From a virus, in the IMG/VR virus record IMGVR_UViG_3300046459_000101, positions 1 to 44,664 of that record: 44,664 nucleotides of DNA; one strand, written 5' to 3'. The translations under genes were made by a program, and so were the position numbers. This document shows, one piece after another, positions 5,304 to 42,549 of the stretch (the first letter of the stretch is position 1; the number at the start of each line of letters is the position of its first letter). Under the pieces are notes generated by a model. It was not told where the DNA came from, searched no databases, and saw nothing but the letters and a program-made list of their open reading frames with translations.

Positions 5304-5573
5304 CTATGACTGAAGTCCCTTGTGGGGGCCACCATGACGATCAGACCCCTTAGAGACCGGCTTACGATCCTTGGCCAACTTGGACAGCATCTCAGTGCCG
5401 TGCATGACCAGCTCGGTCCCCAGCTCGATCAGCTCAGCAGGAGTGAGCGCCGCGTGAAAAGTTCCTTCGCCACTCACAGCCAGGAACCCACCTTCACCAC
5501 TCTCGATGTAGCCACATCCCTGTTCCCCCAGTCGAGTGAGGATACGACCGTGCAACTGCCGACGCTTAGGCAT
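5304..5573 (-). CDS. Small unknown protein on the opposite strand
   Basis: The 89-residue protein begins MPKRRQLHGRILTRL and starts at an ATG whose upstream sequence on this strand reads GGAGG with a 7-base spacer. That favours it over longer in-frame starts. It has a basic N-terminus, a predicted beta hairpin (GCGYIESGEGGFLAVSGEG) and a helical part (LTPAELIELGTELV). A TTGACA box lies upstream on this strand, but without a convincing -10. No family is recognised. A leftward gene is rare in T7-like phages and may belong to a lysogeny or immunity control region. Confidence 0.55.
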   Translation of the reverse strand: MPKRRQLHGRILTRLGEQGCGYIESGEGGFLAVSGEGTFHAALTPAELIELGTELVMHGTEMLSKLAKDRKPVSKGSDRHGGPHKGLQS

Positions 5574-6391
5574 TCCCAGACCTCCAATGTCATCGTAAGG
5601 GGCCCCGAGAACTCGCTGTCGCTCGTCTCGGGGCTTGTCAACTCCACTGCACCTCAGAAGCTCCACAGGAGCCCGTACAGTGGCCTTCCAATCGCCCGCA
5701 CCAAACCCTCGGGCACTCCGAAAGAACGCACACACGCCTGCCGCTCGTGGACTGGCTACGGGAATAGATAGTTTCCCAGAGGCGCACGTCAAGTGCCACT
5801 GAGGTTCCCCGGATAGTTGGCGCAAATCTCTGAAGGGCAGGCTCGAACCCTATCGGCCGCGCGTTCCCCCCTAGGCCCCTCGATCCGGCCGCAATCGGGC
5901 CGCCTGCCGTGCCCATTGTCACCGCACCTTGTCACCACCATAGGCTAACCCATTGAAATCATTGGGGTGGCGCGGGATACAGTATCCGCTTGATGCACGA
6001 TAGGGGCGGGTTAGGTGCACGCGAGGGGCCCGGCTAGTGCGGCTCGCTCGCTTTCATTTCCCTATCAGTGTCTTTGCCTCACGTGCACCTACCGTGCACC
6101 ATCACAGGCACCGAGGGCGCACCTCACAGGCACCGAGGGCGCACCGAGGGGCGGGGCATGGCCTAACCGTAGGGCGCACCGAGGGCGCACCATTGGCCGT
6201 CCTAGCGTGTCACCGAGGGCGCACCATCACAGGCACCGAGGGCGCACCGCGAAAGAATGTTGCGGCGGGACAAAAAGTGTCAGTTTGACACTGAGCACGT
6301 GCACCGCTGGCCACTCGGCAAGCCTCGCGAGGGCGCACCTCACAGGCACCGAGGGCGCACCTAGCAGGGCATGGGGCCAGGGTGATTTGTG
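5574..6391. other. Gene-poor region, probable genome-end/packaging zone
   Basis: No convincing gene is seen here. It holds a perfect 8-bp inverted repeat (CCCCGAGA 5603-5610 / TCTCGGGG 5626-5633), a palindrome GGATAC-A-GTATCC (5975-5987) and the iterated repeats at 6101-6361. Lying between TerL and the early genes, it corresponds to where T7-like phages have their terminal repeats, which an assembler would have collapsed. The exact ends cannot be located from sequence alone. Confidence 0.5.
6101..6361. repeat. Iterated 15/23-nt repeats (CACCGAGGGCGCACC)
   Basis: CACCGAGGGCGCACC occurs exactly six times (starts 6109, 6131, 6177, 6211, 6234, 6347), with partial copies near 6168 and 6326. In four copies it is preceded by TCACAGG, giving a longer unit. 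Spacing is irregular and all copies share one orientation. T7 and T3 carry arrays of short repeats next to their terminal repeats, so these may have a role in concatemer processing. An operator array is the alternative. Confidence 0.85.
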
Positions 6392-6529
6392 TCACCGTGC
6401 TCGCCAGATACCGCCAGCGTCATAGCGTCCACCATCGGCGCGAACATGGGCGTCATTGAATGCGAGCAAAGCCGCGACGCCTAACGCTACCGCAAGCCCT
6501 GCAATCAGTTGTTTTGCTCTGTCTGACAT
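6392..6529 (-). CDS. Possible small exported or membrane protein
   Basis: The 45-residue frame begins MSDRAKQLIAGLAVALGVAALLAF, giving one hydrophobic segment (about residues 8-24) with a basic start. A short hydrophilic tail ends in GGIWRAR. Codon use is less GC-rich than in the late genes, and the ribosome site is weak. It reads away from the divergent promoter region at 6530-6711. No family is recognised and the call is tentative. Confidence 0.35.
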   Translation of the reverse strand: MSDRAKQLIAGLAVALGVAALLAFNDAHVRADGGRYDAGGIWRAR

Positions 6530-6711
6530 GATCGAACGCCTACCAAGTCTCGAGACGGGGCGCAAATAGTCGAGTCGCGACAACGGCTTATAAAATAGTT
6601 CGCGACTATCGAAAATAATAGTTGACCTATGATCGTAGATTGACTACCTCTATGGACACCGGGGCGGCGCTGTTGTCGCTCCATCACCTGCCAACCATAG
6701 AGGTTCTACAC
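6530..6711. promoter_or_regulatory. Early promoter region with palindromic operator-like site
   Basis: This AT-richer stretch precedes the first early gene. ATAGTTCGCGACTAT (6595-6609) is an inverted repeat with ATAGT/ACTAT arms. Related AATAGT and TCGCGAC pieces recur at about 6565-6582 and 6616-6622. A TTGACC box (about 6621) could serve as a rightward -35, though the matching -10 (TACCTC) is poor. On the other strand TTTTCG and TTATAA lie about 16 bp apart. It may be a divergent, regulated promoter region. Confidence 0.45.
6684..6709 (+). repeat. Intergenic motif copy 1 (TCACCTGCCAA..TAG..TCTAC)
   Basis: This is the first of six related 22-29-nt elements with consensus TCACCTGCCAAACGTAG-N4-TCTAC. 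This copy reads TCACCTGCCAACCATAG-AGGT-TCTAC and overlaps the ribosome site of the 6712 gene. Spacing does not fit a sigma70 promoter. The role is unknown. Confidence 0.65.
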
Positions 6712-7515
6712 ATGACGACCCGTGCATTGATGGCCGCCAAGCTCGCCAACTATCCCGTGTCTAACAACTTCCGCCTTCTCTCGCCGTCCAATCCCAAAAT
6801 TAACAAGGGGCGGGGCGCTGGCTTCTGGACGTTCATTCTGCACCTCTCGCCCGCCTCTCTGTCTGGCTTCAACACCTGTCCGATGGCCACTGCTGGCTGC
6901 AAGGCCGCATGCCTCAACACTGCGGGGCGGGGCGGCATCGCTGCTGGCGTCGGTATCCTCACTGCGGAGGACGTTGCTGCTGGCAAGCGAAACGCAATCC
7001 AGAACGCTCGCATCCGCAAAACTCGCCTGTTCTTCACTGACCGCGCCAACTTCATGGACGTGCTTGCTGGCGACATCGCCAAGGCGATCCGGGTTGCTCG
7101 CGCCAAGGGCTATACGCCGGTCTTCCGCCTCAACGGCACCTCTGACATTCGGTGGGAAGCAATCCCTGCTGGCGGCCATGCCAACCTGATGGCCATGTTC
7201 CCTGACGTGCAGTTCTATGACTACACCAAGATTGCTAACCGCAAGCGCGTGCCTGCCAACTACGCCCTCACGTTCTCGCTTGCTGACGGCAATGACGAGG
7301 CCGCTGCTACCGCCCTCGCCAATGGCATGAACGTGGCTGCTGTCTTCCGGTCTAAGGATGCCGTGGCCAAGGTCGAGGCTGCTGGCTTCATGGGCTATCC
7401 CGTCTTCAACGGTGACGAAAGCGACCTCCGCTTTCTCGACCCTGCGCACCACGTGATTGCGCTCTACGCCAAGGGCAACGCGAAGCGCGACGCCTCCGGC
7501 TTTGTTCGTGACTAG
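6712..7515 (+). CDS. GP88-like protein, first early gene
   Basis: The 267-residue protein starts at an ATG preceded by AGAGGTT; upstream in-frame ATGs lack such a site. It resembles the phage GP88 family (named after a mycobacteriophage product). It has a cysteine cluster CPMATAGCKAACLN near residues 56-69, then a conserved LFFTDRANFMD, RLNGTSDIRWE and YDYTKIANR. The spaced cysteines suggest metal binding. The biochemical role of the family is not known to me. Being first to enter and be expressed, it occupies the place of T7 gp0.3 and may act on host defences or takeover, which is inference from position only. Confidence 0.7.
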   Translation: MTTRALMAAKLANYPVSNNFRLLSPSNPKINKGRGAGFWTFILHLSPASLSGFNTCPMATAGCKAACLNTAGRGGIAAGVGILTAEDVAAGKRNAIQNARIRKTRLFFTDRANFMDVLAGDIAKAIRVARAKGYTPVFRLNGTSDIRWEAIPAGGHANLMAMFPDVQFYDYTKIANRKRVPANYALTFSLADGNDEAAATALANGMNVAAVFRSKDAVAKVEAAGFMGYPVFNGDESDLRFLDPAHHVIALYAKGNAKRDASGFVRD

Positions 7516-11278: not shown

Positions 11279-11668
11279 ATGATCACGAAGGGGGCTTCGC
11301 ACATGACCAGTAACGACAACAACACCAGCATCGAAGACGCGAAGTGGGTTGAGACCCTGACGCTGATCATCAACGAGTTCAGGAAGATCAGCTCGGACAT
11401 CACCGCCAACCAGATGCTGGTTCTGCTGCACGCTGGTGCGAAGCCGGGCATCACTCAGAAGGAGCTGTCCAAGGTGACTGACATCGCGGACGGCACCATC
11501 TCGCGCATCTGCGCTCTTATGTCTGACCGTGGCCATCAGGGCCGCGATGGGCTCAACGTCCTGAGCATCGACCCTGTCCCCGGCGACTTCCGCTCGAAGG
11601 GCCAGAAGCTGATCGGCGCTGGCAAGAAGATGTACGCCAGCATCAAAGCCCACATGATCAACCGCTGA
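11279..11668 (+). CDS. MarR-like winged-helix regulator
   Basis: The 129-residue protein has a perfect AAGGAG site seven bases before the chosen ATG. The pattern NQMLVLLHAGAKPGITQKEL followed by TDIADGTISRICALMSDRG fits a MarR-type winged helix-turn-helix with the recognition helix near residues 68-83. It lies between its own sigma70-like promoter and the integrase gene. It could be the lysogeny repressor, an integrase regulator or an excision factor. Candidate operators are the palindromes at 6595 and 10652. Assignment of a specific role is inference. Confidence 0.65.
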   Translation: MITKGASHMTSNDNNTSIEDAKWVETLTLIINEFRKISSDITANQMLVLLHAGAKPGITQKELSKVTDIADGTISRICALMSDRGHQGRDGLNVLSIDPVPGDFRSKGQKLIGAGKKMYASIKAHMINR

Positions 11669-11699: not shown

Positions 11700-12773
11700 A
11701 TGCCGATGGCGACTTATCCCAAGGGCAACAAGTTCATTACGAAGTTCATGGTGGACGGCAAGCGTCACACCAAGATGCACGACACGGCGGCCGAGGGCGA
11801 GGCGTGGGAATTGACCGCACGCGGTGCCCTGAAGCTCGGCAAGGCCATCCCCGAGGGCGAGAAGAAGATCGGCGGCTCCGACGCTGGCTCCCTCGGCAAC
11901 CTGCTGCGCGAGACCGCGACGCTCCACTGGTCGAAGGGCAAGGACAGCTCGAAGTGCGAGCTGAATGCCTCCACCTTCGTCAACTGGTGCGGCAAGGACA
12001 TGGGCGTGGTCGAGGCGTTCTCGCAGGAGAACATCGACGAGTTCCTCCAGTACCTGCTCAACGAGCGCGAGGTCGAGGGCTCGACGGTCAACCGCTACAA
12101 GTCGGCGATCCGCGTCATGATGGAGCGGGTGAAGCACAAGCTGCCCGCCGTCCCGACCTTCCCAAAGTTCAGGGAGAACAAGGGCCGCTTCCGGTTCTTC
12201 TCGCACGAGGAGGAGCTGGCCATCCTGTCGCTCTGGACTGTCTGGGAGCGATACCACGAGAGCGAGTTCTTCCAGTTCCTGATCGACACCGGGGCCCGCA
12301 CCTACACCGAGGGCCAGGTACTGAAGTGGGACGACATCCACAAGGACCGTGTCATCTTCTGGGACACCAAGAACGGCTCGTTCAGGGCAGTGCCGCTGTC
12401 CAACCGGGCGCAGGACATCATCGCCTCGCTCAGGAAGCGTAAGGGCAACCAGCCGGGCCCGTTCACCGAACTGACCAAGCCGCACATGCGCTGGCTCTGG
12501 GAGCGCACCCGCGCCCAGCTCCCGCAGGTCGAGGACGCCGTGGTCTACTGCACCCGGCACACCTACGGCTCCCGCATGGTCATGAACGGGGTGCCCCTGT
12601 CGGTCCTGAAGAAGCTCATGGGCCACAGCGACATCAAGATGACTGAGCGCTACGCCGTGTTCGAGGACAGCGCCGCCTTCGAGGTCGCCTTCAAGGCCCT
12701 CAACGGTGGGGGCTTCGCACCGGCCCGGCCGTCCCCGATTGGGCTGGTCGTAGACAACGCCGCCGGGGGATAG
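11700..12773 (+). CDS. int: Tyrosine recombinase (phage integrase)
   Basis: The 357-residue protein (an alternative ATG lies two codons later) has the expected order of domains. A DNA-contacting N-terminal part is followed by a core-binding SAM-like domain (about 75-150). The catalytic domain holds Arg200 (DTGARTYTEGQ), Lys224 (WDTKNGSF), Arg286 (TRHTYGSR), His309 (MGHSD) and Tyr318 (ERYAVF). A tyrosine takes the place of the usual first histidine of the HxxR box. The neighbouring tRNA-Leu with flanking repeats is its probable attP. Integrases upstream of the RNA polymerase are known in some T7-like phages, for example pelagiphages. Confidence 0.93.
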   Translation: MPMATYPKGNKFITKFMVDGKRHTKMHDTAAEGEAWELTARGALKLGKAIPEGEKKIGGSDAGSLGNLLRETATLHWSKGKDSSKCELNASTFVNWCGKDMGVVEAFSQENIDEFLQYLLNEREVEGSTVNRYKSAIRVMMERVKHKLPAVPTFPKFRENKGRFRFFSHEEELAILSLWTVWERYHESEFFQFLIDTGARTYTEGQVLKWDDIHKDRVIFWDTKNGSFRAVPLSNRAQDIIASLRKRKGNQPGPFTELTKPHMRWLWERTRAQLPQVEDAVVYCTRHTYGSRMVMNGVPLSVLKKLMGHSDIKMTERYAVFEDSAAFEVAFKALNGGGFAPARPSPIGLVVDNAAGG

Positions 12774-12853: not shown

Positions 12854-12940
12854 GCGGGTGTGGTGGAATTGGTAGACACGTCAGGTTTAGGTCCTGATTT
12901 CCTTACGGAATTACGGGTTCAAGTCCTGTCACCCGCACCA
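12854..12940 (+). tRNA. tRNA-Leu (anticodon TAG)
   Basis: The 87-base gene has an encoded CCA end. The acceptor stem GCGGGTG/CACCCGC is perfect. The D arm (GGAATTGGTAGAC), the anticodon stem TCAGG/CCTGA around loop TTTAGGT, a class II variable arm (TTTCCTTACGGAA) and a TTCAAGT T-loop are all present. It looks fully functional. It could decode CTN leucine codons, restore a host tRNA after integration, or serve mainly as the attP core. Confidence 0.95.
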
Positions 12941-13168: not shown

Positions 13169-13600
13169 ATGACCCAAGACGAGATCGACGACTGGCAGTG
13201 CAAGCTGCACCTCTGGTCCTGCTACCTCTACGAGGTCGAGGCCAACGCACCGCTCAGCGACGAGCAGTACGACCAGCAGTGTCAGTACCTGCTCCGCATC
13301 TACGCCCGGCTCCCCGACTGGTATCGCCAGCGGGTCACCGAGGGCGACCTGACCAGCGGCAGCGGAGCGTCCATCGCCCGCTCCCTCACCCCCGACGAAA
13401 TCGCAGCCGCCCGGTGGTGGCGCGACGAACACATACCAGCCATGCGAAAGGAAGCCCATGACCGACATCAGCACCTCCTCGACGAACAGCGCCGACGTGA
13501 TGGATCGCGAGCACCAGCTCGAAAAGCAGGCGGCCGAAAAGGGCGCGGCAAAGGTCCGCAAGATGGTCGCCAAGGCCAAGGAGAAGGGGCTCGGGGCTGA
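13169..13600 (+). CDS. Protein resembling DNA ligase LigA domain Ia
   Basis: The open frame gives 143 residues. The first 110 hold the signature LYEVEANAPLSDEQYDQQCQYL, which follows the (Y/L)-Y-x3-AP-x-(I/L)SD-x2-YD pattern of the NMN-binding Ia domain of NAD-dependent ligases. A helical part with LTSGSGASIA follows. No adenylation or OB domain follows, so it cannot be a complete ligase. The last 143 bases overlap the RNA polymerase gene, and the encoded tail is Gly/Arg/Lys-rich, perhaps only a by-product of that frame. It may bind NAD/NMN or act with a host ligase. T7 encodes its ligase just after, not before, the polymerase. Confidence 0.6.
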   Translation: MTQDEIDDWQCKLHLWSCYLYEVEANAPLSDEQYDQQCQYLLRIYARLPDWYRQRVTEGDLTSGSGASIARSLTPDEIAAARWWRDEHIPAMRKEAHDRHQHLLDEQRRRDGSRAPARKAGGRKGRGKGPQDGRQGQGEGARG

Positions 13601-15929
13601 CACGCCCGGTGGTGTGGCGCTGATGAAGCGGGCGGTCGAACCGCTCTCCAAGGCCATCACTGCCACGCTGGAAGCCGCCAAGTCGGGCAAGGCCGGTCGC
13701 CGCCATGTGGCCCTCGCCACGATGGAGCTGCTGCCCGCCGACGTGCTCGCCTACCTGACCATCCGCGAAGCACTGAGCGCGGCCATCGGGTCCAACCGGC
13801 TGACCACCACCGCCATCGAGATCGGCAGCATGGTCGAGGAGGAGCTGCGGCTCCAGACCTTCGACGACGCGGAGCCCGGCCTCTACGCCACCGTCATGCG
13901 CCGCCTGAAGGAGCGCGGGGCGCAGGCTGGCCATGCCCGTGCGGTCTTCGTCCACACCGCCAACAAGAACAACGTCGAGCTGCCGTCCCTGACCAAGGTC
14001 GAGAAGCTGCACCTCGGCACCCGGCTGATCGAGCTGCTGATGGAGAGCACCGGCTTCGTCGAGAAGCAGAACGTGCGCGACGGCAAGAAGGAGAAGGCCA
14101 TCCTCCGGCCCGCCGAGGCGGCCATGAAGTGGATCGAGGACGCCAACATCCGCGCTGAGCTGCTGGCACCGTCCTATGCCCCGATGGTGTGCCCGCCGAA
14201 GGACTGGGAGGGCTTCTCCGGGGGCGGCTACATGTCCCAGTCGTTCAAGGCCCTGCCGCTGGTCAAGGCGTGCAGCAAGCGCCAGCGCGAGATGCTGGAG
14301 GCGGCCGACCTGACGCTGGTCCTCCGGTCGCTCAACGCGATCCAGCGCACCCCGTGGCGCATCAACACCCAGGTCTTGGAAGTCATGACCGAGGTGTGGG
14401 AGCGGGGGCTGGAGATCGCCATGCCGCACCGTGAGGACAGGCTGGTCCCGCCGTTCCCGGCTGGGCATGTCGCCGCCGCTACGCCTGCCGAGAGCTGGGC
14501 GAACGTGGCACCCGAGGTGAAGCAGCGCTGGATGCGAGCGGCCCGTAACGTGCACGAGCTGAACGCCTCGTCGCGCGGCAAGCGCATCGGCATCACCCGC
14601 ACCCTGAAGACGGCGCAGGAGCTGGCAGGCGAGCCGGAGATTTTCTTCCCGCACCAGCTCGACTTCCGGGGCCGTGCCTACGCTGTGCCGGAGGGGCTGA
14701 ACCCGCAGGGCAACGACCACGCCAAGGCGCTGCTGACCTTCGCGGCCTCGCGCGGCAAGCCGATCATGGACGCTCGCGCTGCGGGCTGGCTGGCCATCGA
14801 CGGCGCGAACCGCTTCGGCTTCGACAAGGCTGAGCTGGAGGAGCGCATCCAGTGGGTCGCGGATCGCGAGGAGCAAATCCTGTACACCGCCGAGTGCCCG
14901 CTCGGTGACCTCTGGTGGACTGAGGCGGACGAGCCGTGGCGCTTCCTCGCCTTCATCTTCGACTACGCAGGCTTCCTGCGCGAGGGCTACGGCTACGTCT
15001 CGACACTGCCTTGCAGCAGCGACGGGAGCTGCAACGGATTGCAGCACTATTCGGCAGCACTCCGCGACCCGGTTGGTGGCGCAGCGGTCAACCTCGTGCC
15101 GCAGAAGAAGCCCGCCGACATCTACCAGCGGGTCGCTGATCGCGTGCTGGAGAAGCTGCGTGAGAACGAAGACGACTGGCAGGCTCGCGGCTGGATCGAC
15201 TTCGGCATCAACCGCAAGATCACCAAGCGGCCGGTGATGGTGCTGCCCTACGGCGGCAAGTTCAAGAGCTGCATGGGCTACGTGAGGGACGCGGTCGATG
15301 AGAAGATCGCGGACGGCGCGGAGAACCCGTTCGGCGACGAGCTGAGCAAGGCATCGACGGCGCTGGCTCGCGTGGTGTGGGACAGCATCGGCGACGTTGT
15401 CGTGGCTGCACGTGCGGCGATGGACTGGCTCCAGAGCTGCGCCCGCGTCGCGACGAAGCACGGGCAGGCCATCTCTTGGACGGCACCGTCAGGCTTCCCG
15501 GCCTACCAGTGCTACATGGACAAGAAGGACAGGCGGGTGAAGACCCGGCTGCAAGGCTCGCTGGTCTATCTCTCGGTCAAGGAGGAGACCGACAAGATCG
15601 ACGGCTCCCGGCAGGCGCTGGCCATCGCACCCAACTTCGTGCACTCGCTCGACGCGGCGGCCATGATGCTGACCATCGACATGTCGCTGGACAACGGCAT
15701 CACCTCGTTCGCCATGATCCACGACAGCTACGGCACCGTGGCGGCCGACATGGACATGCTCGCGGCCTGCATCCGGCACGCCTTCGTGGACATGTACAAG
15801 GAGCATGACGTGCTCGATGAGTTCCGCAACAGCCTCCCCGAGGAGGTGAGGGTGATGACCAATGAGCGCCCGCCGCTCGGTGACTTGGAGATCGAGGGAG
15901 TGCTGGAGAGCCAGTTCTTTTTCGCCTAG
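13458..15929 (+). CDS. Single-subunit phage DNA-dependent RNA polymerase
   Basis: The 823-residue protein (T7: 883) starts at an ATG behind AAAGGAAG. The catalytic motifs are all present: LDFRGRAYAV (about 401-410), motif A SSDGSCNGLQHYSAALRDP (catalytic Asp near 521), motif B ITKRPVMVLPYGG (about 588-600) and motif C IHDSYGT (Asp near 756). It should transcribe the middle and late genes from the SP6-like elements at 5217, 15958 and 25556. The gene overlaps the end of the 13169 frame. The short distance from its stop to a promoter copy matches T7 class II gene organisation. Confidence 0.97.
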   Translation: MTDISTSSTNSADVMDREHQLEKQAAEKGAAKVRKMVAKAKEKGLGADTPGGVALMKRAVEPLSKAITATLEAAKSGKAGRRHVALATMELLPADVLAYLTIREALSAAIGSNRLTTTAIEIGSMVEEELRLQTFDDAEPGLYATVMRRLKERGAQAGHARAVFVHTANKNNVELPSLTKVEKLHLGTRLIELLMESTGFVEKQNVRDGKKEKAILRPAEAAMKWIEDANIRAELLAPSYAPMVCPPKDWEGFSGGGYMSQSFKALPLVKACSKRQREMLEAADLTLVLRSLNAIQRTPWRINTQVLEVMTEVWERGLEIAMPHREDRLVPPFPAGHVAAATPAESWANVAPEVKQRWMRAARNVHELNASSRGKRIGITRTLKTAQELAGEPEIFFPHQLDFRGRAYAVPEGLNPQGNDHAKALLTFAASRGKPIMDARAAGWLAIDGANRFGFDKAELEERIQWVADREEQILYTAECPLGDLWWTEADEPWRFLAFIFDYAGFLREGYGYVSTLPCSSDGSCNGLQHYSAALRDPVGGAAVNLVPQKKPADIYQRVADRVLEKLRENEDDWQARGWIDFGINRKITKRPVMVLPYGGKFKSCMGYVRDAVDEKIADGAENPFGDELSKASTALARVVWDSIGDVVVAARAAMDWLQSCARVATKHGQAISWTAPSGFPAYQCYMDKKDRRVKTRLQGSLVYLSVKEETDKIDGSRQALAIAPNFVHSLDAAAMMLTIDMSLDNGITSFAMIHDSYGTVAADMDMLAACIRHAFVDMYKEHDVLDEFRNSLPEEVRVMTNERPPLGDLEIEGVLESQFFFA

Positions 15930-28264: not shown

Positions 28265-29113
28265 TTGAGCACCGCTTCGGTCTCTTTCCAGCAGGCCCCG
28301 ACCGGCGCTGAGGCTCCGGCTGCGGACCCCAGCAAGGACATCAATGCGCAAGCAACGAACCCCGCCCCAACTGGTGACGGGTCCAATCCCGCTCGCCCCG
28401 AGTGGCTCCCGTCGAACTTCAACTCGGTCGAAGACTTCGTCAAGTCAAGCAACGACGCCAGAGCAGAACTCACCCGCACCCAGCAGGAACTCGCGAAACT
28501 CCGCAAACCCAGCGACAGTGCCAGTGAAAAGCCTGCCGAAGGGACAGAGAAGGCTCCGCAGACCGAGGCCGAACGAGCCGCAAGCGACGCAGTAGCGACC
28601 GCCGGGCTCGACGTTACGTCATGGCAAGCCGAGTTCAACGAGACCCGAGACGTGTCCGAGAAGGGCCGTGCGGAGATCGCCAAGGCACTCGAAGCGCAGT
28701 TCGGCCCGAACGCGCGGACGCTGGTTGACGACTTCATCGAAGGCCAGAAGGTTCGCCTTCAGAACGTCGAGAACCAAGTCCATCAGGTCGCGGGCGGCAA
28801 GGACCAGTACGCTGCGATGATGCAGTGGGCGGGCTCCAACCTGAGTGATCAGGAGGTCAACGCCTACAACAAGGCGATGGGCTCCGGCGACTTCAATGCG
28901 ATGTCGCTCGCTGTCGATGGCCTGAAGGCACGCTTCGTCAAGGCGAAGGGCTCTGCCCCGAACCTGATCAGCGGCGACGGCTCCATCGGCGACAGCAACG
29001 CGGGCTTCGGCTCCACGTTCGAGATGACCAAGGCAATGAAGGACCCGCGCTACGGCAAGGACCCGGCATACACCAAGTCCATCGAACAGCGGGCCATGCG
29101 CTCCAACTTCTAA
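28265..29113 (+). CDS. Capsid assembly scaffolding protein, T7 gp9-like
   Basis: The 282-residue protein probably starts at TTG, as no ATG lies near. It has a low-complexity acidic N-terminal half and a helical C-terminal half (LEAQFGPNARTLVDDFIEGQ, VNAYNKAMGSGDFNAMSLAV) typical of T7-like scaffolds, ending SIEQRAMRSNF. It directs procapsid assembly and leaves before maturation. Unlike in T7, four lysis genes separate it from the capsid gene. Confidence 0.85.
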   Translation: MSTASVSFQQAPTGAEAPAADPSKDINAQATNPAPTGDGSNPARPEWLPSNFNSVEDFVKSSNDARAELTRTQQELAKLRKPSDSASEKPAEGTEKAPQTEAERAASDAVATAGLDVTSWQAEFNETRDVSEKGRAEIAKALEAQFGPNARTLVDDFIEGQKVRLQNVENQVHQVAGGKDQYAAMMQWAGSNLSDQEVNAYNKAMGSGDFNAMSLAVDGLKARFVKAKGSAPNLISGDGSIGDSNAGFGSTFEMTKAMKDPRYGKDPAYTKSIEQRAMRSNF

Positions 29114-29118
29114 GGACA

Positions 29119-29844
29119 ATGAACGACCACCTTCACATCTCGAAGGCTGGCCTCAATCTGATCAAGTCGTTCGAGGGCCTCTTCCTGACAGCCTATTACT
29201 GTCCGGCAGGGGTCCTCACGATTGGCTACGGCCACACCAACATGGACGGCGTCGAGCCGCGTGTTGTGAAGGGATTGAAGATCACGGAAGAGCAGGCGCT
29301 GGACATCCTGCGTCGCTCTCTCGTGGGCTACGAGAACGCTGTGAAGCGCCTCGTGAAGGTCCGCCTTACCCAAAGCGAGTTCGACGCTCTTGTGTCGTTC
29401 GCTTACAACTGCGGCATCGGCGCTCTCCAGAAGAGCACGTTGCTCCGCAAGCTCAACAAGGGCGACTACGATTGCGTCCCCAGCGAGCTGATGAAGTACA
29501 CGATGGCCACCACCAAGAAGGGCCGCGTGCAGCTTGCCGGTCTCGTCCGCCGCCGTAAGGCCGAAGGCGCGATGTGGATCGCCACCAAGCATGCCGAAAT
29601 CCTCCAGCCCGCCATCACTGGCGTGGCACCACAGGAAGAGGCTGAAGACGAAACCCCGATGGCGCAGGACGTGGCAACGCCACCCACCAGCACGGTCGAG
29701 AAGACCATCGCCACCGCCACCTCAGCCGCACCGATGCTGTCCTTCATGGCAGGCATCGACTGGAAGATCGTCGCCATCGTCGCTGCATCCGCAGTGGCTG
29801 GCCTCGCGCTCTGGGTCTGGTATCGGCACAACAACCACGCCTGA
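29119..29844 (+). CDS. GH24 lysozyme with C-terminal membrane segment
   Basis: The 241-residue protein has a GH24 (T4-lysozyme type) domain at residues 7-160 with the E-8-C-5-T catalytic spacing (Glu19, Cys28, Thr34 in SFEG...CPAGVLTIGYGHT). A Cys in place of Asp occurs in active relatives. NCGIGALQKSTLLRKLNKGDY is the usual second lobe. After an acidic, Thr/Pro-rich linker, residues 215-234 form a hydrophobic helix (WKIVAIVAASAVAGLALWVW) followed by YRHNNHA. A C-terminal anchor is unusual; signal-arrest endolysins carry it at the N-terminus. Confidence 0.88.
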   Translation: MNDHLHISKAGLNLIKSFEGLFLTAYYCPAGVLTIGYGHTNMDGVEPRVVKGLKITEEQALDILRRSLVGYENAVKRLVKVRLTQSEFDALVSFAYNCGIGALQKSTLLRKLNKGDYDCVPSELMKYTMATTKKGRVQLAGLVRRRKAEGAMWIATKHAEILQPAITGVAPQEEAEDETPMAQDVATPPTSTVEKTIATATSAAPMLSFMAGIDWKIVAIVAASAVAGLALWVWYRHNNHA

Positions 29845-29921
29845 TGTTCGAGCACATCTTCGCATCATTCGCAGTCGTGGTCGCGTTCCTCGGCCTCGTC
29901 TCACTCATCACCGGAAGCTGA
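29844..29921 (+). CDS. 25-residue membrane peptide in the lysis cassette
   Basis: The frame MFEHIFASFAVVVAFLGLVS plus a short end is almost entirely one membrane helix. Its ATG overlaps the lysozyme stop, and it ends just before the i-spanin. It could modulate the holin or be a small pinholin-like protein. It is too short for family assignment. Confidence 0.45.
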   Translation: MFEHIFASFAVVVAFLGLVSLITGS

Positions 29922-29922
29922 C

Positions 29923-30246
29923 ATGTTCTCCATCTCCTCCCTGTTCAATCTCAAGGGACTGAGCATCGCAATCGTCATTGCGTTCCTCGCTGGCTCTGCC
30001 GGTGGCTGGAAGGCCCGTGACGCGCTGTGCGATGCTGCCGAAGCCAAGGCCCAGGTTGTCGTGTTGCGCAAGCAGCTCGAAGCCCGTGACGCTGCCGCGA
30101 AGGCAGACGCTGGCAAGGCCGCGCTCCAGTCCGCCACGATTGACAAACTCGAAAGCGCAATTCGTGACGCTGAAAGCAAAACTGCTCCTACCGTTTGTCT
30201 TGATCGCGATGACACTCGGCGGCTGCGTAACCTCTGGAAGCACTAG
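29923..30246 (+). CDS. Inner-membrane spanin (Rz-like)
   Basis: The 107-residue protein has an N-terminal membrane anchor (LSIAIVIAFLAGSAGGW, about 13-29). A long periplasmic coiled coil follows (AEAKAQVVVLRKQLEARDAA), then a short charged end. The nested lipoprotein gene at 30164 is diagnostic of an Rz/Rz1 pair. Together they fuse the inner and outer membranes at the end of lysis. Confidence 0.85.
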   Translation: MFSISSLFNLKGLSIAIVIAFLAGSAGGWKARDALCDAAEAKAQVVVLRKQLEARDAAAKADAGKAALQSATIDKLESAIRDAESKTAPTVCLDRDDTRRLRNLWKH

Positions 30247-30448
30247 CTCTCCAAGCCTCGCTCCCATCCCCGGCGACATCGTGACGTGCTTCAACAGCAT
30301 CGTCCCTGCGCCGAAGCAGGACACCCTGACCAAGCGTGACATCGTCCGCCTGATCGGTGACCTGAAGAAGTCCGAAGCTGCCAAGTCAGCTTGCGGCAAA
30401 CGACTGATTGGTTTCTACGACGCTCAACGCGAAGTGTTCGAGAACTGA
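30164..30448 (+). CDS. Outer-membrane spanin lipoprotein (Rz1-like)
   Basis: The 94-residue protein starts at a GTG inside the i-spanin gene in another frame. It carries a lipoprotein signal (KLLLPFVLIAMTLGGC) with the lipobox LGGC. A periplasmic domain follows that ends FYDAQREVFEN. The cysteine becomes the lipidated N-terminus in the outer membrane. Start codon choice is uncertain, but the signal and nesting are clear. Confidence 0.82.
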   Translation: MTLKAKLLLPFVLIAMTLGGCVTSGSTSSPSLAPIPGDIVTCFNSIVPAPKQDTLTKRDIVRLIGDLKKSEAAKSACGKRLIGFYDAQREVFEN

Positions 30449-30680
30449 TCAACATGGCCAGCGCCTCTGCCCCGAAAGGGGTACGCGCGGGTCTTCCTAC
30501 CAGTGTGAGAAGAACGTGCTGTCCTATCTAGGCGGCGTTCAGGTCCAAGACCACCGAACATCACGAGACCATTTGGCTCGACCTACGGTGCACCTGCGGG
30601 TGCGCTGAGGCGAATAACCTCGTGCGTCCTCCGATGTCGGGTTCGAGGCCATTTCCTCAATCCACACTGGAGACTACCAA
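30449..30680 (+). other. Structured untranslated region before the capsid gene
   Basis: No convincing gene is seen. Short hairpins are CCCC-gaaa-GGGG (about 30470), GCACC-tgcg-GGTGC (about 30590) and GAGG-cgaataa-CCTC (about 30608). GGAG lies before the capsid ATG. It may be a 5' leader that stabilises the capsid mRNA. No SP6-like promoter copy was found in it. Confidence 0.4.
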
Positions 30681-31619
30681 ATGACCGACACTGTTGTGTC
30701 CCGTACCGGCCAGATCAACCATACCGGCGATGCGCTGGCCATGTTCCTCAAGGTGTTCTCGGGTGAAGTCCTCACCGAGTTCGAGCGCACCACGCTTTTC
30801 ACGGATAAGCACTTCATCCGTGCGATCACCAGCGGCAAGTCCGCTCAGTTCCCGCTGATCGGTAAGGCTTCGAGCCGTTACCACACGCCGGGTCAGTGGA
30901 TCGATGGCACCGTCATCGACCACGCTGAGAAGGTGATCACCATCGACGATCTGCTGATCGCCGACACCTTCATCGCCAACATCGACGAAGCGATGAACCA
31001 CTACGACGTTCGCGGTCCCTACTCGCAGGAGCTGGGTCGTGAGCTGGCGCAGGCGTTCGACACCAACGTCGCCCGCGTGATCGCGCTCGCAGCCCGCGCT
31101 GCCAACCCGATGACCTCGCGTCCGGGCGGCACCCGCATCTCGAACGTGAACATGGACACCGACAAGGACGTGCTCCGCACCTCCCTGTTCTCGGCGGCCC
31201 AGAAGCTGGACGAAAAGAACGTCCCGGCTCAGGATCGCACCGCGTTCTTCCGTCCCGCCCAGTTCTACATCATGGCGCAGGACCCGACGCTCGTGAACAA
31301 GTTCTACGGCAACACCGGCGCTGACCTCGGTCAGGGCACGCTGGAGACCGTCGCTGGCTTCCCGATCGTCAAGTCGAACAACGTCCCCGGCGCGAACGAC
31401 ACGGCCAACACCGCCGTTCACTCCAAGTATCGCGCTGACTTCAGCACGACTGTCGGCCTCATCTCTCACAAGATGGCCGCTGGCACCGTCAAGCTGATGG
31501 ACCTCGCGATGGACGCTCAGTACGAGCCCCGCCGTCAGGGCACCTTCATGGTCGCCAAGTACGCGGTCGGCCACGACTGGCTGCGCCCCGAGTGCGCGGT
31601 CGAACTCTACAAGGGCTAA
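30681..31619 (+). CDS. Major capsid protein, T7 gp10-like
   Basis: The 312-residue protein has the HK97-type features of T7-like capsids: GDALAMFLKVFSGEVLTEFE, GKSAQFPLIGKASSRYHTPG, DDLLIADTFIANIDEAMNHY, and an end WLRPECAVELYKG. It starts behind GGAG. There is no sign of a frameshift extension. A structured RNA and a strong terminator follow, consistent with very high expression. Confidence 0.95.
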   Translation: MTDTVVSRTGQINHTGDALAMFLKVFSGEVLTEFERTTLFTDKHFIRAITSGKSAQFPLIGKASSRYHTPGQWIDGTVIDHAEKVITIDDLLIADTFIANIDEAMNHYDVRGPYSQELGRELAQAFDTNVARVIALAARAANPMTSRPGGTRISNVNMDTDKDVLRTSLFSAAQKLDEKNVPAQDRTAFFRPAQFYIMAQDPTLVNKFYGNTGADLGQGTLETVAGFPIVKSNNVPGANDTANTAVHSKYRADFSTTVGLISHKMAAGTVKLMDLAMDAQYEPRRQGTFMVAKYAVGHDWLRPECAVELYKG

Positions 31620-38085: not shown

Positions 38086-41000
38086 ATGGATGAACTGATG
38101 ATGGACGGCTGGGCACCCGAGGGTGTCGCCGTTCCTCCCGCAACTCCCGTTGTGCAGCCCGATCTGCCGCAGCCCGAGGTGCAACCCGCGCCGTCACCGG
38201 CTCCGTCTCCCGACGCTGTCGTGACTGCCCCCGAGGTTGACCCGGCGCTCGCCAAGGGTCTCGAACAGCAGACGCCCGTCGTCGCGCAGCCCGAGGCTCC
38301 GAAGGCAGCGAACGAGCAGCAGGCGATGCCTACGCTGACCACCTCTGTGCAGTCGCTGACGCCGTTCCTGGCCCAAGGCAAAGACCTGTCGCACCTCAAC
38401 GGGATGCAGGACACGTTGGCCGAACGGCTGACGCGGCTCATCACCGAAGCCCCGCAAGACATTCGCGACGGGCTCAAGATCAATTCTGGCTACCGCTCCG
38501 TCGAGCGGCAAGCGCAAATCTATAAGGAAGCCGTCGCCAAGTACGGCTCCGAGGCAGAGGCCCGCAAGTGGGCTGCGCCTCCCGGCCGCTCGAACCATAA
38601 CCACGGCTTCGCGGCTGACCTCGGCTACGGCAACCCCGCCGTCGAGAAGTATGTGCACGACAACGCTGCCAAGTACGGCCTGTCGTTCCCAATGGCGCAC
38701 GAGCCGTGGCACATCGAGACCGCTGAAGCTCGCTCTGGCGTGAAGCCTGTCACCGTCCCTGCGGACGTGAAGGGCCACATTGAAGAGGCGGCGCAGCGGG
38801 CTGGCGTGCCAGTGAGCGTGCTCATGGCTACGGCCAAGCAGGAGAGCGACTTCGGCCGCAACCTCGCCAACCCGAAGGGCTCCGCGAAGGGTCTCTTCCA
38901 GTTCGTCGATGGCACGTGGTCAGACATGATCACCAAGTACGGCCCGGTCTACGGCCTGCCGACGACGACGCCCGTCACCGACAATCGCGCCAACGCCTTG
39001 ATGGCGGCCGAGTACATGCGCCAGAACAACGCGCTGTTCACGAAGCAAATGGGCCGCGCTCCGAAGGACGGCGAGATGTACATCTCCCACTTCATGGGCG
39101 GGCAGGGCGCTGTCAACTTCGTCAAGGCGTATGAGAGCAATCCCAGCGCCAACGCTGTGGAGCTGTTCCCCAAGGAAGCCTCCTACAACAAGAGCATCTT
39201 CTACGAGAAGAACGGCACGCCTCGCAGCGTCGCTCAGGTCTACGGCAAGCTGTCGTCCTACATCGACGGCAACACCAACTACGCCAGCGCCCCCGGCCTC
39301 GACTTCGGCGCTCAGCGCACCGCGCAGGACTTCAAGCCTGCACCGCCCGCGACAACGCAGGCTGAGGTGATGACGCAGAACGAGGCGATGGCCAAGCGTG
39401 AACGTGAGATGCCTTGGTATCAGACCACGGCGGACGCGATCAGCCAGTCCTCGATCACGGCGCGGCTGCTCCAGAACAACCCGCACTTCACTCCCGACGC
39501 ATCCTTCGTGATGACGCCGGAGGTGCAGACCTCGCTCCAGAAGGAGTACGGCCTCGCGCCCGAGATGATGCCCCGCTTCGAGAGCGCGGTGTCCGCCAAC
39601 CATGCCGTCTACATCGCCCAGCAGGCGCAGCGTGACCAAGTCGCGCAGCAGCACCTGTCTGACGCGGGATGGACCGGCACGGCCCTCCAGCTCGCCACGA
39701 CGTTGCTCGACCCGGTCTCTCTGGGCGTCGGCGTCGCGACTGGTGGTCTCGGTGACGTGGCTGCTGCGGCAGTCGGCGCAGGCCGGGTTGGGCGCGTAGT
39801 CGCTCAGGCAGGCGCGGGCGCGGCTGCGAACGTCGGGCTCGAACTCGGCGAGCGGCGGCTCAACATGAGCGGCGAGGAGCACAGCCTCCTGATGACCGCT
39901 GCGATGGGCGCACTGTTCGGCGGCTCCTACGGACTGATCTCGCGCAACCCGGCCACGGCTGAGGAAGCGATGAAGATGGCCAACCTCGGCCAGTCCATGA
40001 AGCAGCAGCTCGAAGGCACCAGCTCGCACACCAGCCCCAACTCGATGGGCGCTGCGGGCAACCCCAACGCCAACATGCCGTTCCTCAACGACAAGGCTTT
40101 CATTGCCACGCAGGACGCTGACGCGCCCTACACCGTGGACAAGATCGCTGGCGTGAAGGTCGGCCGGGGTGACAGCGTGGGCCAGCTCAAGACTGTGCCC
40201 GATGCGAACACCCGATTGCTCGGCGGCGCGCTGGGCGAGGACGGTGTCGCCAACGCGGACGGTCGCATCAACACCTTCTCGGCCTCCGAGGAGATGGAGC
40301 TGTTCCACCGCAAGGACATCGCTCAGCTCAACCAGATGTGGGCTCCGGCTGCATCGGAGTGGGCGAAGGACAATGGCTACAAGCTCGGCCGCCTCACGGG
40401 CGGTGCGGAGTTCAACGACCTCGTCACCTCCTACATCCGCAACACCGACCCGACGCTCGACTGGCATCCCGCTGTGAAGCGGCTCGGCGATCACATCGCC
40501 ACCATGAACCGCGAGAAGCTGCTCGACGCGCAGAACCCGCTGCGTCGTGAAGGGCTCGTCGGTCGGCCCGTGAAGGGCTTCGAGGAGACGCCCAGCAACC
40601 CGAACTACATGATGCGTATCTACGACGCTCACAAGATCAACCAGCTCCTCGACGAGGCGGTCGCCCACGGCGTCGGTCAGAAGGGACTGGAGGCTTGGTT
40701 CAAGGGCGCGATGAAGTCGGCCCAGACTTGGATCGACGAAGACCTCCTCGACAAGATCGCAGAGGGCACCGTCAAGCGCCTCCGCAACAAGGCCAACGGG
40801 ATCGATGAGGCGATGAACCTCATGCACTCCGGCTTCGACGTGGAGCACCTGAAGGACATCCTCCGTGACGTGGATGTGCCCGAGGAGCGCATCGACAAGC
40901 TGCTCGGCACCGTCCGCCTCAACGCAGAGACGGGCGCTGACGTTCGCGCGAAGCATCGTCTGTTGCTCGACGAGACGTTCACGCTGCGTGGCTACCGCAC

Positions 41001-42549
41001 CTACAGCGGTGAGCTGCGCGACCTGAAGCTCAGCGACTTCACCGTCACCGACGCGAAGCTGCTCTCGGACATGTACTTCCGTCACATGAACGGACGCATC
41101 GCCCTGGCACGTGTTCGCGTTAAGAACCCGACGACCGGCGAGATGCTGATCAACGGCATCACCTCGGACAACGAGTGGGCCACTGTGAAGAACAAGCTCG
41201 TGCAGTCGATGGCGGACAGCAAGATGTCCCCGGCCGACATCAAGAAGGCCACGGCCAACTTGGACTTCCTCTACGACCGCACTCTCGGTCGCCCTGATCC
41301 TGCACAGCAGGGGCAGTGGGCGGATTGGCTGCGGCGTGTCCGCAAGTTCAACTTCCTCCGGCAGGGCGGCTCGTTCGGTATGGCGCAGATACCCGAAATG
41401 GCGATGATCCCGGCGCAGCTCGGCATGAAGGCGTTCCTTCAGCACGTGCCTGCGTTCAAGCGCATCGTCACTGCGGATGGACGCTCGATCCTCAACGACG
41501 GCCTTGGGGCTGAGTTGGAGGCAGCGTTCGGCGTCGGCACCGACCGGCTCCGTGGCATGCAGTTCTTCAAGAGTGACGAGTTCGGCTTCCATGAGACTGG
41601 CAAGCTGGGCAAGCTCGACAACGGCCTCGACTTCGCACAGATGGCGGTGGCTGAGGCGTCGGGCATGACGACCATCAACACGATGCTCCAGCGCACCACC
41701 GCGAAGGTGATCGCGCAGAAGTTCGCGGACATGGCGCTCGACCCGACCTCGGTCAACCTGAAGCGCATGGCCTCCATCGGCCTCTCCGACGCGATGCTGA
41801 AGCGCATCACGAAGGAAGTGAACACCCACTTCACCAAGGAAGATGGGCTCCTGTTCAGCGGCAAGGTGACCCGGATGAACCTCGACAAGTGGGGCGACCT
41901 CGAAGCCCGTGCGGCGTTCGAGAACGCACTCTTCCGCTGGTCGCGCCGGATCATCCAAGAGAACGACATCGGCAACATGCACCGCTGGTCCTCGGGCCCG
42001 CTGTGGCAGATGCTCTTCCAGTTCCGCACCTTCTCGATCAACGCATGGAATAAGCAGTTCATGCTGAACATGCACATGCGCGACATGACCTCGTTCCACG
42101 TCATGACCTACTCGCTACTAGCTGGCGCTGCCGCCTACGCGGCTCGCATGCAGCTTCAGGCGGTCGGTCGCTCGGACAAGGAAGACTTCCTCGCGAAGCG
42201 TCTGTCCCCCGAGAAGATGGCGCTGGGTGCTTTCCAGAACACCGGCTGGTCCTCGCTGCTTCCAATGGCGACGGACACCGCAGCCTACCTCACTGGCAAC
42301 AGCCCCGTGTTCGATGCACGAACCTCCGGCAACGCTTCGGACGTGATCTTCGGGTCGCCGACTATCGGCCTCATGGATGACTTCGCGAAGGCCGCCAAGG
42401 GTGTCGTGCAGCCGATCAAGGATGGCCGTCAGCGGTCTCAGATGGAGAGCAGGCAGATCGCCCGCGTCGCTCCGTTCCAGAACTGGATGCCCGCCTCGGC
42501 GCTGCTCTCGACGATGATCTCGTCACAGCCCGAACGTCCAGCCAAGTAA
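38086..42549 (+). CDS. Internal virion protein D (gp16-like) with M15 peptidase and lytic transglycosylase domains
   Basis: The 1487-residue protein (T7 gp16: 1318) opens with a Pro/Ala-rich linker (1-80). Residues about 110-215 hold an M15/VanY-type peptidase with the zinc motif SNHNHGFAAD (Ser169, His171, Asp178) and PWHIE (His209). Residues about 220-350 hold an SLT transglycosylase: ATAKQESDFGRN with catalytic Glu253, GSAKGLFQFVDGTW and YISHFMGGQGA. The remaining 1100 residues are the helical ejection-tunnel part. The protein enters the periplasm during ejection and opens the wall. T7 gp16 has only the transglycosylase. Confidence 0.92.
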   Translation: MDELMMDGWAPEGVAVPPATPVVQPDLPQPEVQPAPSPAPSPDAVVTAPEVDPALAKGLEQQTPVVAQPEAPKAANEQQAMPTLTTSVQSLTPFLAQGKDLSHLNGMQDTLAERLTRLITEAPQDIRDGLKINSGYRSVERQAQIYKEAVAKYGSEAEARKWAAPPGRSNHNHGFAADLGYGNPAVEKYVHDNAAKYGLSFPMAHEPWHIETAEARSGVKPVTVPADVKGHIEEAAQRAGVPVSVLMATAKQESDFGRNLANPKGSAKGLFQFVDGTWSDMITKYGPVYGLPTTTPVTDNRANALMAAEYMRQNNALFTKQMGRAPKDGEMYISHFMGGQGAVNFVKAYESNPSANAVELFPKEASYNKSIFYEKNGTPRSVAQVYGKLSSYIDGNTNYASAPGLDFGAQRTAQDFKPAPPATTQAEVMTQNEAMAKREREMPWYQTTADAISQSSITARLLQNNPHFTPDASFVMTPEVQTSLQKEYGLAPEMMPRFESAVSANHAVYIAQQAQRDQVAQQHLSDAGWTGTALQLATTLLDPVSLGVGVATGGLGDVAAAAVGAGRVGRVVAQAGAGAAANVGLELGERRLNMSGEEHSLLMTAAMGALFGGSYGLISRNPATAEEAMKMANLGQSMKQQLEGTSSHTSPNSMGAAGNPNANMPFLNDKAFIATQDADAPYTVDKIAGVKVGRGDSVGQLKTVPDANTRLLGGALGEDGVANADGRINTFSASEEMELFHRKDIAQLNQMWAPAASEWAKDNGYKLGRLTGGAEFNDLVTSYIRNTDPTLDWHPAVKRLGDHIATMNREKLLDAQNPLRREGLVGRPVKGFEETPSNPNYMMRIYDAHKINQLLDEAVAHGVGQKGLEAWFKGAMKSAQTWIDEDLLDKIAEGTVKRLRNKANGIDEAMNLMHSGFDVEHLKDILRDVDVPEERIDKLLGTVRLNAETGADVRAKHRLLLDETFTLRGYRTYSGELRDLKLSDFTVTDAKLLSDMYFRHMNGRIALARVRVKNPTTGEMLINGITSDNEWATVKNKLVQSMADSKMSPADIKKATANLDFLYDRTLGRPDPAQQGQWADWLRRVRKFNFLRQGGSFGMAQIPEMAMIPAQLGMKAFLQHVPAFKRIVTADGRSILNDGLGAELEAAFGVGTDRLRGMQFFKSDEFGFHETGKLGKLDNGLDFAQMAVAEASGMTTINTMLQRTTAKVIAQKFADMALDPTSVNLKRMASIGLSDAMLKRITKEVNTHFTKEDGLLFSGKVTRMNLDKWGDLEARAAFENALFRWSRRIIQENDIGNMHRWSSGPLWQMLFQFRTFSINAWNKQFMLNMHMRDMTSFHVMTYSLLAGAAAYAARMQLQAVGRSDKEDFLAKRLSPEKMALGAFQNTGWSSLLPMATDTAAYLTGNSPVFDARTSGNASDVIFGSPTIGLMDDFAKAAKGVVQPIKDGRQRSQMESRQIARVAPFQNWMPASALLSTMISSQPERPAK

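Follow-up and report, generated by a model that had tools for sequence, protein, structure and literature searches.

A lysis module with a probably C-terminally anchored lysozyme in the exchangeable scaffold–capsid slot of a T7-like phage

Gene content of the scaffold–capsid slot

The window (the whole stretch of DNA analysed) is a virus record of 44,664 bases. On its + strand, a region that runs from a scaffold gene to the major capsid gene (28265–31619) contains, in this order, the scaffold gene, a GH24 lysozyme gene, a hydrophobic open reading frame (ORF) of 25 codons, an i-spanin gene, an o-spanin gene, a structured RNA and the capsid gene. We refer to the space between the two flanking genes as the slot. 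The gene calls confirm the initial annotation in placing a lysozyme, the short hydrophobic ORF and a spanin pair between the scaffold gene, which ends at 29113, and the capsid gene, which starts at 30681. The features of the region, and a holin candidate that lies far from it, are as follows.

28265–29113, + strand: scaffold gene, T7 gp9-like (PHROG 1052, E 6.5e-49; Pfam Phage_T7_Capsid, PF05396, E 3.7e-13)
29119–29844, + strand: GH24 lysozyme (endolysin), 241 amino acids (Pfam Phage_lysozyme, PF00959, E 5.7e-43)
29767–29823, + strand: predicted membrane helix at the C-terminus of the lysozyme (about residues 217–235), then RHNNHA (hydropathy 2.1; kept in four of four relatives)
29844–29921, + strand: hydrophobic ORF of 25 codons, putatively coding (equal length in five of five copies)
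29923–30246, + strand: putative i-spanin (Rz-like), 107 amino acids, with an N-terminal membrane helix (PHROG 1327, E 0.01, a weak match; hydropathy 1.92)
30164–30448, + strand: putative o-spanin (Rz1-like lipoprotein) from a probable GTG start (lipobox LGGC; 51% identity over 76 amino acids to the annotated o-spanin of Rhizobium phage Pasto)
30513–30651, + strand: conserved structured RNA, 3' border of the slot (z -3.97 for 30512–30680; covariance models; no Rfam match at E ≤1 in 30440–30700)
30681–31619, + strand: major capsid gene, MCP (Pfam Gp10A-like, PF21703, E 1.4e-71)
1272–1457, + strand: candidate gp17.5-like holin, 61 amino acids, after a fibre-assembly gene (PHROG 920, E 0.0029; homologues in seven relatives; comparison with T7)

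Genes 9 (scaffold) and 10 (capsid) of T7 adjoin one another (22873 and 22967), separated by 93 bases that contain the promoter phi10. The T7 holin gene 17.5 lies between the fibre and small terminase genes, and one T7 spanin gene is embedded in the other.

Residues 16–149 of the lysozyme form the Phage_lysozyme match, and a search of PDB sequences returns 15 distinct sequences, all of them named lysozyme, endolysin or muramidase. E19, C28 and T34 align with the triad E15, D24 and T30 of LysAP, the endolysin of Acidovorax phage AP1 (triad positions as given in PMC8879335), and the protein thus has the GH24 domain with E, D-or-C and T residues of LysAP-type endolysins. An acidic, proline-rich linker of about 60 residues separates this domain from a hydrophobic segment, in which the best 19-residue Kyte-Doolittle window reaches 2.1 at residue 217; outside the last 60 residues the maximum is 1.13. 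By hydropathy the lysozyme has a single C-terminal helix, as LysAP-type enzymes do, and lacks the N-terminal membrane segment of N-terminal SAR endolysins. The tail YRHNNHA is identical, and the hydrophobic segment is kept, in the window and in all four relatives with the same cassette (type A: L001, L003, L008 and L011, of which L003 is partial and L008 and L011 are near-copies). The AlphaFold model (mean pLDDT 42.4, from a three-sequence alignment) is unusable for the helix. K and D precede the helix and R and two H follow it, which gives only a slight charge bias. If the helix inserts in the membrane, there is a weak preference for the lysozyme outside and the tail inside. Since the sole predicted membrane segment is C-terminal and conserved, a lysozyme held by its C-terminus, and in this differing from N-terminal SAR endolysins, is the likeliest reading of the sequence.

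The 25-codon ORF, which the initial annotation took for a membrane peptide, is indeed hydrophobic (2.3–2.7 across copies), but its variable sites number 11, 8 and 11 at the three codon positions, so that no clear coding constraint on a peptide is apparent. It has no match in PHROG or Pfam. A spacer that couples translation of the lysozyme and the i-spanin, instead of a functional peptide, has in our judgement a little less than an even chance. Several features fit a spacer: the start overlaps the lysozyme stop (TGATG), no Shine-Dalgarno sequence precedes the ORF, and the ORF ends one base before the i-spanin start and carries the Shine-Dalgarno sequence of the i-spanin gene within its end. The codon-position counts fit as well, and amino acid identity is no better than under random substitution (0.77, 0.31 and 0.13 of trials reach the observed value in three comparisons, which are not independent). 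A mere spacer accounts less readily for the equal length at all five type A loci (the window, L001, L003, L008 and L011; four distinct) and for the kept hydrophobicity, since in the same three interdependent comparisons 10%, 15% and 2% of the random-substitution trials leave the ORF stop-free and equally hydrophobic. Coupling would be enough to explain the ORF, a function of the peptide is possible, and the spacer reading is compatible with the mechanism that we prefer below.

The spanin pair is present, although not nested as first described. The i-spanin gene extends to 30246, and the o-spanin most likely starts within it, at the GTG at 30164, and runs on to 30448; the genes overlap, and nesting is rejected. 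The hydropathy maximum of the i-spanin lies at residue 4. This protein is similar to proteins of Pasto and Mesorhizobium phage Lo5R7ANS (E about 1e-5), and the o-spanin is also 44% identical over 70 amino acids to a Lo5R7ANS protein. An i-spanin with an N-terminal helix, overlapped by an o-spanin with a lipobox, is the layout of two-component (Rz/Rz1) spanins, and the pair presumably functions as such. In the slot of phage LUZ100 (L083), an ORF that ends at 3820 has a hydrophobic stretch and overlaps gp38 (3735–3926), which has the lipobox LSGC. These two are likely an overlooked spanin pair; the LUZ100 paper, in the part available, reports no apparent spanin genes.

Exchange of the lysis module among relatives

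The lysis module between the scaffold and capsid genes is exchanged as a unit among relatives, with precise borders. Seven near relatives (L004, L005, L007, L009, L010, L018 and L020), whose capsid proteins are 89–95% identical, carry a different cassette in the slot, and a Rhodopseudomonas palustris prophage (L109) has the same slot cassette as L005. When 28265–31619 is compared with L020 by blastn, a match of 83.5% identity breaks off at 29111, within the stop codon of the scaffold gene, and one of 89.9% identity starts at 30492, with nothing at E 1e-3 within the cassette. The scaffold gene forms the 5' border of the slot. In the comparison with L005, the second stretch of similarity starts exactly where the RNA element does, at 30513.

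The alternative cassette (4224–5670 in L004, and equivalents) encodes a protein of 245–267 amino acids, a membrane protein of about 80 amino acids and a protein of 133–137 amino acids, the last matching PHROG 12264 in both cases examined. The first of these proteins gives no match in Pfam, PHROG or PDB sequences (L004, L020 and a profile of six). Its structural model (mean pLDDT 64.3) has 24 Foldseek matches, all at E >1; by our own count 17 of them are goose-type lysozymes, lytic transglycosylases or related glycosidases, a hint only that the protein has a lysozyme- or transglycosylase-like fold.

Other phages also have lysis genes in the slot. Pasto and Lo5R7ANS have a gp3.5-type amidase there, next to a homologous o-spanin. 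The Pasto record annotates an endolysin, a two-helix holin and both spanins in the slot, the endolysin being the amidase and not a GH24 enzyme; the available part of the Pasto announcement does not discuss the position of the lysis genes. In two Xanthobacter prophages (L110 and L111), whose capsid proteins are 62–63% identical, overlapping spanins occupy the slot together with a GH24 lysozyme that has a C-terminal helix; we noticed no 25-codon ORF there, and the o-spanin of these prophages has no significant similarity to that of the window.

We scanned 80 loci at which both flanking genes are present, several of them near-copies. The gap between scaffold and capsid genes is at most 500 bases in 34, 500–1,000 bases in 22 and more than 1,000 bases in 24. 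A recognised endolysin lies in the slot at 15 of the 80 loci (GH24, five; alternative cassette, eight; amidase, two). An o-spanin-like lipobox ORF without an endolysin is found at eight and neither at 57, by a rough scan that misses some (the lipobox ORF of L012 is uncounted). The initial description of an insertion between genes adjacent in T7 thus holds against T7 itself; in this phage group, however, the slot is a recurrent site of lysis genes. A literature search, made largely on sources short of full text, found no description of the slot as an exchange site.

Two other kinds of insertion were seen at these loci. tRNA genes lie in the slot ahead of the capsid gene in L083 (4140–4215), L086 (4170–4243) and L016 (5746–5816). 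In L018 the capsid gene (5338–6777) is interrupted by an ORF (5509–5973) with an endonuclease VII domain, which looks like an intron or an insertion.

A structured RNA before the capsid gene

The 169 bases that precede the capsid gene (30512–30680) fold better than shuffled sequences, with only one of 200 shuffles as good. A covariance model built from ten close relatives (R1) matches 33 of 64 sources at E ≤0.2, always immediately ahead of the capsid gene and on the coding strand; ten of the 33 had built the model, and at least five others duplicate or nearly duplicate other members. At E 1.2–2.7 there are six additional matches, two before capsid genes (L036 and L037) and four elsewhere. In 29 more sources, stretches of T7 and phiKMV included, the sole match is L006, a copy of L001. 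Across an alignment of 28 matches, itself fitted to the model, 93.1% of the cells pair and 199 change on both sides, compared with 55 in shuffles. RNAalifold, rerun on this alignment, keeps four helices, with both-side changes in 16 of 17 pairs, and drops the other R1 helices.

A second covariance model (R2), consisting of those four helices and two additional pairs, was searched in 52 sources outside its building set. It gives eight matches at E ≤1, of which seven lie directly before the capsid gene (five of these at E ≤0.004) and one, in L055, lies elsewhere; the remaining 44 sources, which include T7 and phiKMV, are without a match. R2 adds seven pre-capsid sources, two of them weak, to the 33 of R1. 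Copies of the element lie directly before the capsid gene at the following positions.

L085, 4326–4462: RNA element
L087, 4316–4451: RNA element
L083 (LUZ100), 4335–4467: RNA element
L110 (Xanthobacter prophage), 4859–4967: RNA element

The match is clear in L035 and L036 (scaffold–capsid gaps of 422 and 247 bases) and weak in two other short-gap relatives, L019 and L029 (E 0.2 and 0.42). Since these short-gap relatives carry the RNA match, the order scaffold–RNA–capsid may represent the unoccupied form of the slot, before it received a cassette.

In LUZ100, terminator T15, a mapped transcript end, falls near the 5' foot of the RNA if its offset within the annotated stretch is the same as in T16, and the same rule puts T14 near the 5' end of a tRNA. 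On this assumed offset the two positions hint at RNA processing. The ends T14 and T15 are not named in the available part of the LUZ100 paper.

The RNA is possibly the most novel object of the region; a narrow literature search returned nothing relevant to it. Tentatively, and with rather more doubt than confidence, we propose that the slot is bounded by an undescribed pre-capsid RNA, that cassettes with at least three unrelated endolysins have replaced one another between this RNA and the stop codon of the scaffold gene, and that the RNA is cut or serves as a leader, sparing capsid expression. If this is true, lysis genes could come and go without disturbing expression of the capsid. The lysis modules of the group are in any case swapped as a unit at a precise site beside a conserved RNA.

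Proposed anchoring and release of the lysozyme

Is the lysozyme the main endolysin of this phage? GH24 has one match in the window and Amidase_2 has none, and a gp3.5-type amidase as main endolysin is accordingly rejected. Amidase_2 occurs in nine of 18 records. Among the eight with the GH24 or the alternative cassette (the window and seven relatives), it occurs in one, G010, inside a frame of 1,558 codons. The large protein encoded at 38086–42549 of the window contains VanY and SLT domains, which we interpret as the wall enzymes that relatives of T7 usually carry in the virion. Because no gp3.5-type amidase was found, the lysozyme is the only recognised endolysin besides these virion-protein domains.

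The holin candidate is identified mainly by synteny. As the initial annotation stated, it occupies the position of gp17.5, between fibre and small terminase genes, and it has homologues in all seven long near relatives; the sequence match itself, to the holin family PHROG 920, is weak. Pfam gives no match, and blastp finds no match to T7 gp17.5, with which the C-termini can be aligned. The two hydrophobic segments are weak (1.14 and 1.34, compared with 1.38 and 1.47 in T7 gp17.5). In the window an acetyltransferase-like ORF lies between the holin candidate and the small-terminase-like ORF. The same order of fibre-assembly-like gene, holin candidate, acetyltransferase-like gene and small-terminase-like ORF is found in L092. 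Homologues occur in seven of the 18 records searched, namely the seven long relatives with the alternative cassette, and are absent from seven more distant records; the four type A relatives are fragments of 4–9 kb, not assessable in this count. Because it is kept with either cassette, the gp17.5-like protein is the best candidate for a common trigger.

When the lysozyme is compared with 50,697 phage records by tblastn, 2,956 have a match, and 13 of these match at least 80% of the query at a single site. We read six of the matches. A single hydrophobic segment at the C-terminus is present in LysAP, two Manatee Spring phages and Roseobacter phage CRP-738; none was apparent by eye in the translations of Pseudomonas phage PP9W2 and Bradyrhizobium phage ppBeUSDA76-2. 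Profile searches of genome contigs confirmed nothing with the lysozyme alignment and found five loci with the capsid protein.

LysAP is 36.8% identical to the lysozyme over 85% of the query and shares with it the GH24 domain, the absence of an N-terminal helix, the one C-terminal helix and a short basic tail (PMC8879335). AP1 is not T7-like in the stretch compared. Its holin gene lies directly upstream of the endolysin gene, whereas in the window the holin candidate is far away, the spanin pair follows the lysozyme and only the 25-codon ORF adjoins it; we treat the adjoining holin as a trait of the AP1 cassette that does not define LysAP-type enzymes. According to the available text, the C-terminal helix of LysAP is needed for localisation and lysis in E. 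coli, azide delays this lysis, and a C-terminal SAR model is proposed (PMC8879335). M4Lys of phage BSPM4 is reported to lyse without a holin and, by an azide test, without Sec; its helix is needed and is bacteriostatic on its own (PMC7143992). The two papers, as far as available, disagree on Sec (PMC8879335, PMC7143992). M4Lys (PMC7143992) and Enc34 ORF39 (PMC8943055) likewise combine an N-terminal catalytic domain with a C-terminal membrane domain, but the catalytic family is another one (PHA02564) and the Enc34 protein has two membrane helices. The N-terminal SAR endolysins of P1, 21 and phiKMV, named in PMC7143992, are also membrane-held, presumably under control of the membrane state, but are anchored at the opposite end of the protein. 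Because the layouts of LysAP, M4Lys and Enc34 are published, the idea of an anchored lysozyme is not new: the proposal of a lysozyme held by its C-terminus, unlike N-terminal SAR enzymes, survives as a reading of the sequence and not as a novel arrangement. Since Pasto and the Xanthobacter prophages also have lysis genes in the slot, neither the C-terminal anchor nor the site of the lysis genes is new in kind.

Our preferred explanation, to which we give a probability of about 60%, is that a temperate-type T7-like phage carries its lysis module here, in an exchangeable slot, and that the module is made up of a C-terminally anchored GH24 endolysin and spanins, with a distant gp17.5-like holin. 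The GH24 lysozyme would be the main endolysin, anchored in the inner membrane through its C-terminal helix by way of the roughly 60-residue linker, a model already put forward for LysAP. The gp17.5-like holin would then depolarise or open the membrane, on which the lysozyme would cut the wall; the outer membrane would finally be removed by the overlapping i-spanin and o-spanin. The 25-codon ORF would couple translation from the lysozyme to the i-spanin and may also yield a small membrane peptide. Gene content, the conserved helix, the absence of a second recognised endolysin gene and the exchange of the module are observed, whereas insertion in the membrane, topology, dependence on the holin and the action of the spanins are inferred.

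Tail-anchored proteins normally keep their N-terminal domain inside. The helix might accordingly tether the lysozyme at the inner face of the membrane, or not insert at all, with release through large holin holes much as in canonical lysis. The gp17.5-like gene is kept, and T7 gp17.5-type holins are thought to pass endolysins (note in the T7 record). We nevertheless regard storage on the cytoplasmic side as unlikely, given that LysAP and M4Lys, which have the same layout, are reported to lyse E. coli alone (PMC8879335, PMC7143992). Another possibility is that the membrane lesion comes from the C-terminal helix together with the 25-residue peptide, in which case the cassette is self-sufficient in holin function and the gp17.5-like protein is unneeded. 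The bacteriostatic helix and the holin-free lysis reported for M4Lys (PMC7143992) would agree with this, and the alternative cassettes likewise carry small membrane proteins. A gp17.5-like gene is present, however, both in the window and in seven of seven long relatives with the other cassette, and the peptide shows no clear coding constraint; we consider a self-sufficient cassette quite improbable. The anchored, holin-triggered lysozyme is favoured by the GH24 domain with its aligned triad, the conserved C-terminal segment, the absence of another recognised endolysin gene, the homology of the o-spanin to that of Pasto, the exchange of the cassette with precise borders and the LysAP layout, found also in three further phages and in the Xanthobacter prophages. 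The small charge bias, the weakly identified holin and the disagreement of the two experimental papers on Sec speak against it, as does the statement, in the available part of PMC8943055, that no known mechanism would let a C-terminal signal move an N-terminal domain through the membrane.

On this preferred explanation, C-terminally anchored GH24 endolysins would be added to T7-like phages related to Rhodopseudomonas and Xanthobacter prophages, and the small cassette would suit the question of how an N-terminal enzyme whose sole helix is C-terminal crosses the membrane.

Elsewhere in the window, a MarR-like regulator (11279–11668), an integrase (11700–12773) and a tRNA-Leu gene (12854–12940) are followed by an RNA polymerase gene (13458–15929). 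This order is that of LUZ100 and other temperate T7-like phages, as described in the available part of the LUZ100 paper. The two ends of the contig (160–795 and 43920–44558) carry similar genes with the same start, MDHLILPSLRRRLPWRGFPI, which represent either a duplicated fibre-region gene or an effect of assembly.
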